DNA from: a virus | DNA length: 30,805 bases | Strand: one strand, 5' to 3' | Virus record (IMG/VR): IMGVR_UViG_3300036719_000569 | Coordinates: 1-30,805 of that record | Shown: piece by piece, positions 3,679-8,475 of the stretch | How positions within the stretch are numbered: position 1 is the stretch's first letter | How the letters are laid out: each line of letters opens with the position of its first letter | Made by a program: the position numbers and the translations under genes | The notes under the pieces: model-generated | The model's input: the letters and a program-made list of their open reading frames with translations, nothing else | The model's database searches: none | What the model was told of the DNA's origin: nothing

Positions 3679-4284
3679 ATGACAGAGAAACATCACGCAC
3701 CAAAGGATGTTTCTGATAGGATCGCGTTGGGCTTTACAAAGGCCCTTCGCTTTATTGCGGATACCTTCTTTAAAAAGAGATACGGTCATCGAGCTGTGGT
3801 TCTAGAGACCGTGGCGGCAGTACCAGGAATGGTCGCGGGCGCAGGATTGCATCTTAAATCTTTGCGCACAATGAAAGACGATCGAGGTTGGATTAAAGAA
3901 CTTTTAGATGAAGCAGATAACGAACGTATGCATCTTATGACATTCGTTGAACTCGCAAAACCAAATATGTTTGAGCGTATCATCATCTTAATCGCACAGG
4001 CAATCTTTGTTGGTTTCTATGCAATCGTATATTTCTTTTTTCCAAAGACTGCACATCGCATCATTGGTTACTTTGAAGAAGAAGCCGTTCGATCCTATAC
4101 AGAGTTTCTTTCTGAGATAGACAGCGGAAAGATACAGAACGTTCCGGCTCCAAGGATCGCAATTGATTATTGGAAGCTGCCAGAAGACGCAACTCTACGT
4201 GACGTTGTTCTCGTAGTAAGAGAAGATGAAGCAGGTCACAGGGATAGAAATCATGAAATGGCTGATGAACTTAATCACAAGTAA
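3679..4284 (+). CDS. aox: Alternative oxidase (AOX, di-iron ubiquinol oxidase)
   Basis: Membrane-surface quinol oxidase that reduces O2 to water without pumping protons, bypassing the cyanide- and NO-sensitive cytochrome oxidases. In the 201-aa product all ligand motifs are present: LETVAAVPG (E43), NERMH (E82, H85), EEEAVRSYTEFL (E133-135) and DEAGH (E184, H187). AOX signatures LHLKSLR, NVPAPRIAIDYWKLP and DATLRDVVLVVR match bacterial and mitochondrial AOX rather than plastid PTOX. A hydrophobic stretch around 100-121 fits the monotopic membrane helix. There is no targeting peptide, so it is essentially a catalytic core. It starts three bases after the 73-aa gene and is followed by a terminator. 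The intact motifs suggest an active auxiliary metabolic gene taken from a bacterial host; activity is inferred. Confidence 0.95.
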   Translation: MTEKHHAPKDVSDRIALGFTKALRFIADTFFKKRYGHRAVVLETVAAVPGMVAGAGLHLKSLRTMKDDRGWIKELLDEADNERMHLMTFVELAKPNMFERIIILIAQAIFVGFYAIVYFFFPKTAHRIIGYFEEEAVRSYTEFLSEIDSGKIQNVPAPRIAIDYWKLPEDATLRDVVLVVREDEAGHRDRNHEMADELNHK

Positions 4285-4348
4285 TATTCATAAAGATATG
4301 AGCACGCACAGAATTCATACAACAAAGTATGAAGACCTATGCATGTGA

Positions 4349-4356
4349 TATAAATA
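4349..4356 (+). promoter_or_regulatory. T4-type late promoter upstream of hsp20
   Basis: Exact TATAAATA in the 157-base gap between AOX and Hsp20. With T4 late-promoter spacing (element at -13 to -6) the start would be about 4362, which falls inside the 5' arm of the adjacent terminator hairpin. It would give hsp20 an 80-base leader. Confidence 0.75.
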
Positions 4357-4359
4357 AAT

Positions 4360-4388
4360 GCGGAGATGCCAATCGGGTCTCCGCTTTT
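4360..4388 (+). terminator. Rho-independent terminator after AOX
   Basis: Seven-base-pair stem GCGGAGA (4360-4366) / TCTCCGC (4378-4384) with an 11-base loop and TTTT at 4385-4388. It would end messages from the replication/AOX block. Because the late promoter start maps within its left arm, late transcripts should form only a shortened hairpin at their 5' end. Confidence 0.75.
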
Positions 4389-4891: not shown

Positions 4892-4918
4892 AAAAAGGGA
4901 GCGAAAGCTCCCTTTTTT
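4892..4918. terminator. Bidirectional terminator between hsp20 and the leftward tail operon
   Basis: Stem GGGAGC (4897-4902) / GCTCCC (4907-4912) with a GAAA tetraloop, A5 on the left (4892-4896) and T6 on the right (4913-4918). It can terminate both the rightward hsp20 message and the leftward tail message, and it overlaps the stop codon of the latter (4917-4919). Confidence 0.9.
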
Positions 4919-6785
4919 ATTGCGCGCCGGATGGGCGTGATAGAAAGTCTAGATCGGATCTGCTAGACCCAATCACATTCACGGTTGTTGCAGGGCTTCC
5001 ACCGTTAATGCTTGAACTGGTTACACTGTTATCGCTATTGTCTACATTGACATTAACTTGCTGAGCACCGCCGCCTGCTCCAGCGCCATTCACAGTTGCT
5101 ATACCACTTACGGTATCTTCTGAGACAACACCCGAGAGAGCTTGTCTTAACATTACGATATTCTTAATAGCAGTATCGTAATCAACATCCGGAGAAGCTA
5201 GCCCTTTGATCGCGGCGCCAAAGATATATCCGCCTTCTTCTCCCATGATCGCGGCTTCTATAATAGGAACTGCTTCCTTAAGATCTTCAGCAAACTCTCT
5301 TATTCTAAGTTTTTTCCCATCAAACTGAAGTTGGCCGATCTTATCTAGAGATACGGTCAATCTATCTAATGCGTCTGCTCCTTGAGTAAGCTCATCGGCA
5401 TTATCCGCCAATTTCATGAGCTGTTCAAATGGGCTATCAACACCGAAGAATGAAAGGACAGCCGTGACCGCGTTGGCCATCGTTCCTACAAAGTTACCTG
5501 CGGCAAATGCTGTAAGACCAGCGCCAATACCAACCATCGATAAGAAAAACTTGCTGCTTTCTCCAATAAAAGTATCATCTCCAGGAAGTGAGTCGCCAAT
5601 AGAAAGAAGCGCAAGCACGTCACTCTTGATCTTAAGTGCCCAATCTTCATCATTCATTAAGGCAGACAGGCCTGAAATCGCACTACCTGCACTAAAGACT
5701 GCAAGACCTGTTCCTATGCCAGTCATGGCTGCTAGGAACGTACCAGTTTCACCGAATGCTTCAGTTGTGCCGCCAAGAGAATCTTCTATCGACATTAATA
5801 TTCCAACGTCGTCTTTGATCTTTTGCGCCCAGTCTGTGTTGTTTATTAATTCTGCTATACCTACGCCAGCCGAACCTGCCCCAAACAATGCAAGACCTGC
5901 TGCGATACCACTCATGACTGCCAGGAAAGTACCGGTTTCACCGAATGATTCTAGTTTACCACCAAGAGAATCAGAAATAGATAGTAATGTTAGGACGTTA
6001 TTCTTGGTATTTTGCGCCCACTCTTCTCCACCGCCGAACCGCGCAAGCACTTCGCCAATGCCAGCAATTCCACTGCCAATGCCGAATGCTGCAAGACCGA
6101 GAGCCAGCCCAGTCATCGCCAAACCAAACGTTCCGCCTGTAAGAAGAAAATCTATATTGCCTCCAGCGGCGTCAGAAATTGATAGTAGAGTTAATACATT
6201 ATCTTTTACACTCTGAGCCCAGTTATCTACACCTAAGTAATTATTTAAGGCGTCAGCCAATCCGGCCGCTGCACTACCAACTCCGAACGATGCTAAACCT
6301 ATACCGATACCTGTCATTGCAGCTGCAAATAAGCCACCTTCTGCAAAGAACTGTAACATTCCAGCCGAGAAGGATTCAGAAATAGAGAAAAGCTCTAATA
6401 CGTTTTCTTTTACTTTTGCACCATCAAAATCTTCAAGCGCTTGTAAAAAATAACCCCCACCAGCTAGCAATGCACCGATACCAAGACCAGCTGCCCCAAC
6501 ACCCATGCCGATGCCAGACGCAGCGCTTCCTATTCCGCTTCCAATCCCCGATGCTACATTACCAACACTAGATACTGCGCTGCCTATACCAGTTCCTATA
6601 CTGCCAATCCCAGATAAAGCTCCACCTAAAGAGCTTCTATTTGCGCTCCCAAGCTGTGATGCCCTTTGTTGCGATGCAGACATACCTTGCTGTAAAACAA
6701 GTATGTTTGACAACACGGAGCTCTGACCAGAGATGTTCGTGTTAATAGATTCTAGGACTATTTTTAGGTCGTCTAATGTTGCCAT
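4917..6785 (-). CDS. Probable tail tape-measure / baseplate hub protein (gp29 position), repeat-rich
   Basis: The 622-aa product has a heptad-like N-terminus, a Gly/Ser/Ala-rich hydrophobic stretch (about 50-115), five tandem units of 63-68 residues starting near 125, 193, 260, 323 and 386, a charged helical section (455-550) and a low-complexity tail. Each unit contains a DNVLTLLSISD-type helix, then a GxxxxMTGIGxGLAxF hydrophobic segment and usually a closing W-A. Length (T4 gp29 is 590 aa), hydrophobic Gly-rich repeats and position directly after the gp26/gp51-like chaperone genes fit a tape measure, which runs inside the tail tube and sets its length. I see no clear sequence match to gp29, so this is inference; it could be another hub or membrane-puncturing protein. 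Its weak AGG site ends about seven bases before the ATG, suggesting coupling to the upstream gene. Confidence 0.68.
   Translation of the reverse strand: MATLDDLKIVLESINTNISGQSSVLSNILVLQQGMSASQQRASQLGSANRSSLGGALSGIGSIGTGIGSAVSSVGNVASGIGSGIGSAASGIGMGVGAAGLGIGALLAGGGYFLQALEDFDGAKVKENVLELFSISESFSAGMLQFFAEGGLFAAAMTGIGIGLASFGVGSAAAGLADALNNYLGVDNWAQSVKDNVLTLLSISDAAGGNIDFLLTGGTFGLAMTGLALGLAAFGIGSGIAGIGEVLARFGGGEEWAQNTKNNVLTLLSISDSLGGKLESFGETGTFLAVMSGIAAGLALFGAGSAGVGIAELINNTDWAQKIKDDVGILMSIEDSLGGTTEAFGETGTFLAAMTGIGTGLAVFSAGSAISGLSALMNDEDWALKIKSDVLALLSIGDSLPGDDTFIGESSKFFLSMVGIGAGLTAFAAGNFVGTMANAVTAVLSFFGVDSPFEQLMKLADNADELTQGADALDRLTVSLDKIGQLQFDGKKLRIREFAEDLKEAVPIIEAAIMGEEGGYIFGAAIKGLASPDVDYDTAIKNIVMLRQALSGVVSEDTVSGIATVNGAGAGGGAQQVNVNVDNSDNSVTSSSINGGSPATTVNVIGSSRSDLDFLSRPSGAQ
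5436..6413 (-). repeat. Five degenerate coding repeats of about 63-68 codons
   Basis: Within the 622-aa protein, units begin near residues 125, 193, 260, 323 and 386. The most alike are units 3 and 4, which share SLGG and FGETGTFLA plus a WAQ entry. The units are diverged at nucleotide level, so they are old protein repeats rather than recent DNA duplications. Confidence 0.85.
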
Positions 6786-6793
6786 GTCTTGGC

Positions 6794-6961
6794 CTACTTT
6801 CTCTTTTCTTCTTCTTTCTTAATGTAGTCCACTAAAAGATCGTAGTATAGATCTCTTTCAAAAGGCATAGAACTTTCAATATCAAACATACTGTATTTGT
6901 GGTGTTGAACCATACCAAACATCTTATTATAATATATGGACAGGTTTGTATGACTCAACAT
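6794..6961 (-). CDS. Tail-assembly chaperone-like ORF (gp51-like), 55 aa, overlapping gp26
   Basis: Reading leftward, ATG 6961-6959 overlaps the gp26 stop (TAATG) and the frame runs to TAG at 6796-6794. The 55-aa product begins MLSHTNLSIYYNKMF and contains QHHKYSMFDIESSMPFERDL followed by YYDLLVDYIKKEEEKRK. The Met-Pro-Phe-Glu-Arg-Asp-Leu-Tyr block resembles the short second chaperone ORFs that follow gp26-type genes in myoviruses. It lies in the -1 frame relative to gp26, two codons beyond a T-TTT-TTT heptamer, so it may be made alone by coupled initiation and also as a gp26 fusion by ribosomal frameshift. T4 gp51 is much longer (249 aa), so equivalence rests on position and is tentative. 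Confidence 0.75.
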   Translation of the reverse strand: MLSHTNLSIYYNKMFGMVQHHKYSMFDIESSMPFERDLYYDLLVDYIKKEEEKRK

Positions 6962-7662
6962 TAGATAAAAAAAGTTTGGGTTCCTTGTATTACGAAAGTC
7001 TTATCTTCGCCTGCTCTATTTCTATACGGTATCTCGTGTCTTATCTTAGGAATTGTATCAAAGAATTCTTTAAGCTTCTTAACGGAATCTGCGTGAAGAC
7101 TCTCAACAAAAGTGTCTACTTCTTTTTTCGTAAAGTCTTTAAAGTTATACACTTCTTCTTCTGATACTAATCTATCCATGCAAGATAGCATTATTTCTAA
7201 GTTCTTTTCAGCGCTTGGTTTCTCTTGCGTTAAGAAGTCAAAGAATACATCTATGCTAGGATACTTTAAGAATAGAGTATATGTGTCATTAAGTTTTATT
7301 CTATTCGTATGTTTATCGTCTCTTTCTACCTTAACGTTATTTAGATCCAATTCGAGCTGCACCTCGTCTTTTGTATCCGGATCTTCGATCTTAAACTTTA
7401 CGATGTTATCGATCGACTTCGCTCTTATATTAATAAGAAGATACTCTAGATCAAACAACGCAAGATCTTCGATGTCGTAATCAATTAAACAGTTATTCAC
7501 GACTTGTTTCACTGAGTTTATAATCTGTGCCGGATCTTGAGTCTCTTGAGCGATGAGAAGTATCTTTTCTTCCTTTACAGTGAAGGGTCTAAACTTAACT
7601 TTCTTATCGTTCGACGGAAGTTTAAGTTCGTATATAGGTAGGGTAATCTTAGGTAGCGCCAT
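6961..7662 (-). CDS. 26: Baseplate hub/tail assembly protein gp26
   Basis: The 233-aa product opens MALPKITLPIYELKLPSNDK and continues with FRPFTVKEEKILLIAQET, the hallmark start of the T4 baseplate hub subunit family (T4 gp26, 208 aa). The middle is acidic and the C-terminal half helical. AAGGAG about seven bases upstream gives a strong start. The last codons are ACT TTT TTT ATC TAA, a slippery run, and the next chaperone ORF overlaps its stop. In T4 gp26 acts in hub assembly around the tape measure; the arrangement here is the one used by G/G-T tail chaperones of other long-tailed phages. Confidence 0.88.
   Translation of the reverse strand: MALPKITLPIYELKLPSNDKKVKFRPFTVKEEKILLIAQETQDPAQIINSVKQVVNNCLIDYDIEDLALFDLEYLLINIRAKSIDNIVKFKIEDPDTKDEVQLELDLNNVKVERDDKHTNRIKLNDTYTLFLKYPSIDVFFDFLTQEKPSAEKNLEIMLSCMDRLVSEEEVYNFKDFTKKEVDTFVESLHADSVKKLKEFFDTIPKIRHEIPYRNRAGEDKTFVIQGTQTFFI
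6967..6973 (-). promoter_or_regulatory. T-TTT-TTT slippery heptamer, candidate -1 ribosomal frameshift site
   Basis: Seven consecutive A on the + strand give, on the coding strand, T TTT TTT with both TTT codons in the gp26 zero frame, the X-XXY-YYZ rule satisfied. After a -1 slip the reading continues TAT CTA ATG into the 55-aa chaperone-like ORF, producing a fusion of about 289 aa. No downstream pseudoknot was worked out by eye. Confidence 0.6.
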
Positions 7663-7677
7663 ATCATAGTCTCCTTA

Positions 7678-8475
7678 TTATCTAAAAATATTTCCAATAT
7701 TGCTCAGACCGGTTTTTATCTGAGACAATGAATTGTTCACATTTATGAGCTTTGTGTTAAAATTAGTGAATGAGTTAATTGCATCTTGAACAGAAGTCGG
7801 CAGGTTACCTTGGTTTATAAGTTGACCTGTTGTGCCAATTCTGTTGATTAGTTCTAAGAAGCCGTTTCCTCTATTATTTCTTTCAGAGTAAGTACCTGGT
7901 TTAAAACCAGATACACTTAGATGCGAGTATGCAAAGTTGACTGTAGCTGTTGCGTATGAATCGGTGTCTGACCAAGATAGAGTTTCTCCAGATATCTCTG
8001 TTGGAAACGCGTCCTCGAGAACATACTCATAGTAACCGTTTGAGTCTGTGCTATAGCTTCGTATTACAATACGAGTCGATATGTCCTTTACGTACCCAAC
8101 TTCATACGGAAGCTGATCGTTAACTGAATTATACCCACCTCTAGTATAGTCAAAGTTTATAACACTTTGTAACCATTGGTGAAAAAAGCGCAATACTTGA
8201 TGATCCGAGTCCAACATAAAGACTGCATTAAATGGCGAGTGCGTCATCTGTGTTGGGATGGATTGTCTTACGCCGAACCCGTTTGGAAAGTTATCAGTGA
8301 CCGCAACGTTTACTCCAGGCGCCTGCGCAGTTTGACAAAAGAATCTTAAATCACGCAGAGACATTCCGTTATTAAATGGCGGCACGTTCATAATCTCAAC
8401 AACAAACAAATTCTTACGGGCTGGTCCACCGTACTTATTCATTGTGCTCTTAAACTCGTTTATATTGAATGGCAT
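7678..8475 (-). CDS. 54: Tail tube-fold protein, probable gp54 tube initiator (gp19/gp54 family)
   Basis: The 265-aa product has the tube-protein layout: an early strand pair around FVVEIMNVP, a LRFFCQTAQAPGVNVAV segment, a MLDSDHQVLRFFHQWLQSV helix, and a closing YEYVLEDAFPTEISGETLSW then TATVNFAYSHL. These match the shared fold of T4 gp19 (tail tube, 163 aa) and gp54 (baseplate-tube junction, 320 aa). The extra C-terminal 80 residues and the location in the baseplate cluster with gp48 across the promoter favour gp54, the initiator on which tube polymerises. It abuts the stop of the preceding gene without a gap. A second tube paralogue cannot be excluded. Confidence 0.72.
   Translation of the reverse strand: MPFNINEFKSTMNKYGGPARKNLFVVEIMNVPPFNNGMSLRDLRFFCQTAQAPGVNVAVTDNFPNGFGVRQSIPTQMTHSPFNAVFMLDSDHQVLRFFHQWLQSVINFDYTRGGYNSVNDQLPYEVGYVKDISTRIVIRSYSTDSNGYYEYVLEDAFPTEISGETLSWSDTDSYATATVNFAYSHLSVSGFKPGTYSERNNRGNGFLELINRIGTTGQLINQGNLPTSVQDAINSFTNFNTKLINVNNSLSQIKTGLSNIGNIFR

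Follow-up and report, generated by a model that had tools for sequence, protein, structure and literature searches.

A probable programmed -1 frameshift between gp26 and a gp51-like domain in a T4-related marine phage

The gp26 locus of an uncultivated T4-related marine phage very probably encodes two isoforms of a tail assembly chaperone (TAC) by means of a programmed -1 frameshift. This reading is based on the slippery heptamer, the frame relation, their conservation, an RNA fold signal across relatives and homology, all of them sequence-based. The core idea is already published, and the locus is an additional member of a known system. The link between T4 gp26/gp51 and such chaperones was not known to the earlier note on this DNA as an established one. 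Judging by the papers that cite it, Vladimirov et al. 2022 had already brought this link into print at the bioinformatic level.

The sequence analysed here, called the window, is the IMG/VR virus record IMGVR_UViG_3300036719_000569, a 30.8-kb fragment of 30,805 nt. Its source is a marine T4-related phage. Pfam and PHROG matches identified a clamp loader, a gp4-like head closure gene, a gp2-like end protector, a tail tube-like gene and gp26, and a gp48-like tube cap gene lies on the strand opposite gp26. The identical gp26 gene is also found in a record of 217,966 bases (G001) and in locus L003. We found no near-identical DNA to the locus in the isolate phages searched. The features of the locus are listed in Table 1.

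Table 1. Features of the gp26 locus, in positions of the window.
Feature	Position	Strand	Evidence
gp26-like gene, short form (TAC-N), 233 aa	6961..7662	-	PF12322 E 1.2e-56; phrog_150 E 3.3e-63
Putative slippery heptamer T_TTT_TTT, placed for tandem -1 slippage in the gp26 frame	6967..6973	-	sequence; conserved in relatives
Zero-frame stop TAA, one codon past the slip site	6961..6963	-	sequence
-1 frame segment, 57 aa + stop, gp51-like C-terminal domain	6794..6967	-	phrog_634 'baseplate hub assembly catalyst' E 2.8e-18
-1 ORF taken alone, 55 aa, own ATG 6961-6959	6794..6961	-	ORF list
SD-like AGGA, 8 nt ahead of the heptamer, may act as a stimulator	6982..6985	-	anti-SD pairing
Predicted stem, 5' arm, 13 bp, starts 6 nt after the heptamer	6948..6960	-	predicted RNA fold
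Predicted stem, 3' arm of the same 13-bp stem	6903..6915	-	predicted RNA fold
622-aa ORF immediately downstream, candidate tape measure gene	4917..6785	-	position
Tail tube-like gene directly upstream	7678..8475	-	phrog_45 tail tube E 6e-35; PF23849 E 2.4e-11

On the minus strand gp26 ends with ACT TTT TTT ATC TAA TG, where the ATG of the -1 ORF overlaps the TAA. The earlier note had read T-TTT-TTT as exactly in frame for -1 slippage and had described a 55-aa ORF whose ATG overlaps the gp26 stop; we found both in place. The TTTTTTT heptamer starts in codon phase 2, which is the X_XXY_YYZ register. A fusion of about 289 aa had been predicted as well, and the recomputed product of a -1 slip is a gp26-gp51-like fusion of 289 aa (232 + 57). 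The broader proposal, a programmed -1 frameshift in the layout of tail assembly chaperone genes, is strongly supported by the comparison with relatives.

Most ribosomes would terminate at the TAA and release gp26 alone (TAC-N, 233 aa). A fraction would slip back by one base on T_TTT_TTT and produce the 289-aa fusion (TAC-NC). The slip would probably be aided by the stem 6 nt downstream, and perhaps by the SD-like AGGA upstream. If the system works like lambda gpG/gpGT, recruitment of the tape measure protein would fall to the C-terminal domain, and the gp26 part would coat the tape measure until the tail tube replaces it. We infer the slippage itself, its efficiency and the chaperone role.

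The earlier note had proposed an alignment of the locus in related phages as a check. The first 30 IMG/VR relatives, with 34-100% gp26 identity and several of them nearly identical to one another, carried the T_TTT_TTT heptamer and the -1 domain in 30/30 cases, the domain of L002 being cut by a contig end. The full junction set comprised 112 IMG/VR loci from three scans (30 + 2 + the best 80 of 570), which gave 70 distinct 90-nt junctions. An in-frame T_TTT_TTN was present in all 70, spelled TTTTTTC in 57, TTTTTTT in 12 and TTTTTTA in one. The -1 frame relation was kept throughout, with the domains of L084, L129 and partly L002 cut by contig ends. In L031 the T run is longer than in the other junctions.

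Among isolate phages, gp26 matched 676 records at E 0.01, and with the threshold relaxed to E 1 it matched 832. Fourteen isolates were examined first, chosen for spread and some of them via a gp51 match, and the heptamer was found in 13: S-WAM1, Mosig, phiM12, P-SSM2, PG216, D481, Aeh1, LPCS28, RL38J1, RHph_I1_18, Atu_ph04, DLP6 and S-PM2. The exception was K469, which resembles Ackermannviridae. The heptamer of Mosig is 31 nt ahead of the stop and that of RHph_I1_18 is 34 nt ahead, with the -1 frame remaining open in both. The conservation of the heptamer is well beyond chance.

Such a recurrent junction bears on the explanation that a single gene was broken by an indel from assembly or sequencing. 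Homopolymers are error-prone and T4 gp51 is a single uninterrupted fused frame, as this explanation would have it. The identical junction type, however, recurs across many metagenome contigs as well as isolate genomes, and since these independent records show the same junction, an indel origin is in practice refuted.

The T run could also be a by-product of a conserved Phe-Phe motif in AT-rich phages. Several genomes are AT-rich, and 7/8 T4-type loci retain Phe-Phe at the end of gp26, so these residues have a role at the protein level. In those T4-type loci, however, Phe-Phe is kept without the heptamer, the codons being GAG/GAA TTC TTT or GAG TTT TTT. We compared codon choice in 22 representatives with less than 75% identity, drawn from 125 loci (112 + 13 isolates) which all bear the heptamer, K469 having been left out beforehand. 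All 22 have TTT as their first Phe codon there, each with a T before it. The high-GC phages DLP6 and RL38J1 are the most telling cases: their other gp26 Phe codons are all TTC (0/11 and 0/14 TTT), but TTT with the preceding T is kept at the site. With lineages treated as independent, the product of the per-gene TTT frequencies (with pseudocount) is 10^-8.7, and it falls to 10^-19.6, under the same treatment, when the preceding third-position T is included. Synonymous breaks of the T run beside an intact -1 domain, which the earlier note had named as refuting, occurred in 0/70 heptamer-group junctions, and the heptamer-free Ackermannviridae-type junctions have different residues there. The RNA fold peak described below is local to the slip. 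We therefore regard a Phe-Phe by-product as very unlikely.

A stronger rival to the frameshift treats the 55-aa ORF as a gene in its own right, with termination-reinitiation at the TAATG overlap and without any fusion. In 67/70 junctions, that of the window included, an ATG follows no more than six codons from the slip. The TAATG of the window allows reinitiation, and the ORF is annotated as a separate gene in the records of Mosig, phiM12, P-SSM2 and S-PM2. Against this, the other three junctions (L016, L030 and L031) lack ATG, GTG and TTG among the six codons that follow the slip, and the domain is kept. The same was seen in 4/13 isolates, Mosig, Aeh1, LPCS28 and RHph_I1_18, where no start codon occurs in the first ten codons of a kept domain; in RHph_I1_18 an ATG is the 11th codon. 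Reinitiation also leaves the conserved heptamer and the codon choice unexplained, the ATG of the window sits at the foot of the predicted stem, and both parts are fused as one gene in T4. A separate gene thus seems improbable to us, if less so than a by-product of Phe-Phe.

We noticed two annotation details along the way. In Aeh1 (L040) the -1 frame behind gp26 encodes a gp51-type domain, at about 4205-4387, without a start codon. In S-WAM1 (L033, 2911) gp26 is annotated as 195 aa, without the N-terminus of its relatives, and the -1 domain is unannotated. The gp26 start of S-WAM1 is probably annotated too late.

The programmed frameshift would be expected to come with stimulators. We folded 70-nt windows and compared them with dinucleotide shuffles (100 in one run, 40 in the offset profile). 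The stretch starting 4 nt after the heptamer had a mean z of -2.87, with 16/22 representatives below -2, and 27 other offsets from -600 to +480 gave mean z values between -1.20 and +0.25, so the fold peak is local to the slip. In the separate 100-shuffle run z was above -2 in 8/22 representatives and positive in L042 and L044. Some 240 nt past the slip there is a second, weaker fold signal (mean z -1.20, 21 representatives).

In the window itself the predicted stem includes one G-U and one U-G pair. At 6 nt after the heptamer it falls within the 5-9 nt range for a downstream structure, and it is weak on its own, with a modest z of -1.61 (13/200 shuffles as good) and -1.38 in another run. The stem position varies between lineages. 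Covariation of the window-type stem was modest: its score was reached in 9/500 shuffles and its number of covarying pairs in 405/500. In 47 cyanophage-type sequences the covariation was better, the score being reached in 0/500 shuffles, and a version slid by two columns ties with it. Since the A5 stem was derived from one of its own sequences, the slid control favours this stem.

Upstream of the heptamer, anti-SD pairing at AGGA ranks in the best 6% of gene windows (measured in L003, which has the identical gene), and over the 22 representatives the SD-like site ranks on average in the best 8%. A good SD-like site is missing in L031, L035 and L044. The site overlaps a conserved Glu/Gln-Gly motif of the protein, so a protein constraint may account for it.

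We next turn to T4, in which the same parts are arranged differently. The gp26 of the window belongs to the same Pfam family as T4 gp26. Residues 1-201 of T4 gp51 match PF12322 (E 3.9e-52), which makes this N-terminal part a paralogue of gp26. Its C-terminal end matches phrog_634 (E 1.2e-23), the family of the -1 segment in the window. When a profile of 22 -1 domains was aligned with the T4-type gp51 C-terminus, hhalign gave a probability of 96.7, compared to 0.1 for the reversed control. T4 gp51 thus consists of a PF12322 part and a C-terminal domain of the -1 type, and is the fused form encoded as its own gene. In contrast to the window, T4 has genes 26 and 51 on opposite strands, so a frameshift cannot join them.

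The T heptamer was found at the gp26 end in 0/8 T4-type loci (T4, L049, L050, L051, L053, PMBT63, NM4.3 and phiAS4, the first four nearly identical). Separately, T4 (locus L032), L049, L050 and L051 have an in-frame TTTAAAR heptamer 103 nt before the gp26 stop. PF12322 genes numbered one per record in 6/6 frameshift-type records and two in 2/2 T4-type records, in a count for which record completeness is not stated; the frameshift-type records were G001 and five others, one of them a 61.8-kb fragment. The T4-type split, with two PF12322 genes, was thus not found in G001, the carrier of the identical gp26.

K469 led to a further type of junction. We collected 25 Ackermannviridae-type loci: K469, nine records which are similar to K469 or distant from the rest, among them Pseudomonas phage Cygsa01 (L157), and 15 closely related IMG/VR records found using the S117 gene (together L038, L147, L148, L150-L155, L157 and L158-L172). 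A search of the viral contig collection with the K469 gp26 gave no match. In 25/25 loci gp26 ends with NTT TTY NNN TAA and the canonical heptamer is absent. No ATG, GTG or TTG occurs in the nine -1 codons from the junction in 18/25, and 15 of these 18 are the related IMG/VR records. The -1 ORF matched the heptamer-group domain with an hhalign probability of 97.1 (reversed control 0.5), and its direct comparison with T4-type gp51 gave only 29.9. Judging by these features, the NTT_TTY junctions may be a variant of the frameshift signal. A limited literature search, with the full text of Vladimirov et al. 2022 outside it, returned nothing on a chaperone frameshift in Ackermannviridae.

Tentatively, the system could have been reshaped stepwise over the T4-related phages, a scenario we hold to be possible but somewhat doubtful. 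The full cassette of SD-like site, T_TTT_TTN and stem would be that of marine, cyano- and other lineages. The Ackermannviridae type would rely on heptamer-free, single-tRNA slippage on T_TTY, with the -1 domain kept and often without a start codon. In the T4 group the gene would have been duplicated and the heptamer lost. If this is true, Ackermannviridae use a minimal slip signal.

We also looked at the predicted structure of gp26. The AlphaFold2 model (mean pLDDT 86.8) aligned with the HK97 tail assembly chaperone 2ob9 at a VIA-align Z of 7.8 over 83 residues with an rmsd of 3.6, where a Z below 8 can reflect a common arrangement. The other top matches were 3fgx (Z 7.9), YqbN 3klu (Z 6.9), which we take to be an XkdN-like TAC family member, and 5ir0 (Z 5.0), and the next match stood at 2.6. 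All four cover gp26 residues 1-93. Foldseek gave no significant match to the model (best E 0.41, HK97 TAC E 0.95), and a sequence search with the gp26 profile gave no solved chain at E 1. In the model, the N-terminal domain of gp26 appears to resemble the HK97 tail assembly chaperone. The 5ir0 protein belongs to a PICI-like element of Vibrio cholerae, and a satellite-borne chaperone-like protein of this kind might interfere with tail assembly.

The earlier note had the fusion followed by a tape measure candidate. The 622-aa ORF does adjoin the locus, but its identity as the tape measure is positional: it has no PHROG match and no Pfam match above cutoff. Eight ORFs in the equivalent place elsewhere gave a mixed result. 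Three match tape measure PHROGs (L013, a close relative, at about 1e-8, phiM12 and RHph_I1_18) and five do not (L005 without a match, L021 and PG216 with unknown-function families, L031 and S-WAM1 with endolysin-type families). Since its own family match is absent and the relatives are mixed, we assign the 622-aa ORF by position.

The arrangement recalls that of lambda gpG/gpGT, a system also mentioned in PMC10885494. Xu, Hendrix and Duda reportedly described the conserved tail frameshift in 2004. Both have two overlapping ORFs between the tail tube and tape measure genes (the latter positional here) and a -1 slip near the end of ORF1 with a minor long form, which is predicted from sequence for the window. 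The window differs from lambda in its T_TTT_TTN heptamer and in its PF12322 protein with no solved-chain match. Nearer to the window, Vladimirov, Gautam and Davidson are said to have reported in 2022 (Virology 566:9-15) that several T4-like groups use frameshifting and that the genes are split in the T4 group.

PMC12846349, citing Vladimirov et al. 2022, describes poly-T -1 frameshift signals as known in the TAC-N genes of T4-like phages, and PMC10885494, citing the same work, mentions that in some T4-like phages the short form has its own gene and the long, fused form another. With its predicted short and long TAC forms and its putative poly-T slip site, the window would belong to the same system as these citing papers outline it, and differs in being another, uncultivated member. 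For the TAC locus of Vandenendeviridae/Andersonviridae, a -1 frameshift was proposed from conservation, at a short T run near the TAC-N end (PMC12846349, section 3.8.3). The motif given there is GTTTTT, whereas the window has the full T_TTT_TTT. The RNA fold profile, the codon control and the start-codon tally were computed here.

These results have consequences for how T4-related phages are annotated and understood. The C-terminal domain can be annotated wrongly in phage records or left without annotation, S-WAM1 being a case of the latter. According to PMC3037559, cyanophage gp51 is about 20% of the usual length and gp51 is 'missing only in Aeh1'. The frameshift would account for both oddities, and gp51 would be reported missing in Aeh1 because the -1 domain there has no start codon. 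Finally, the frameshift reading supports a testable role of T4 gp26 and gp51 as tape measure chaperones.
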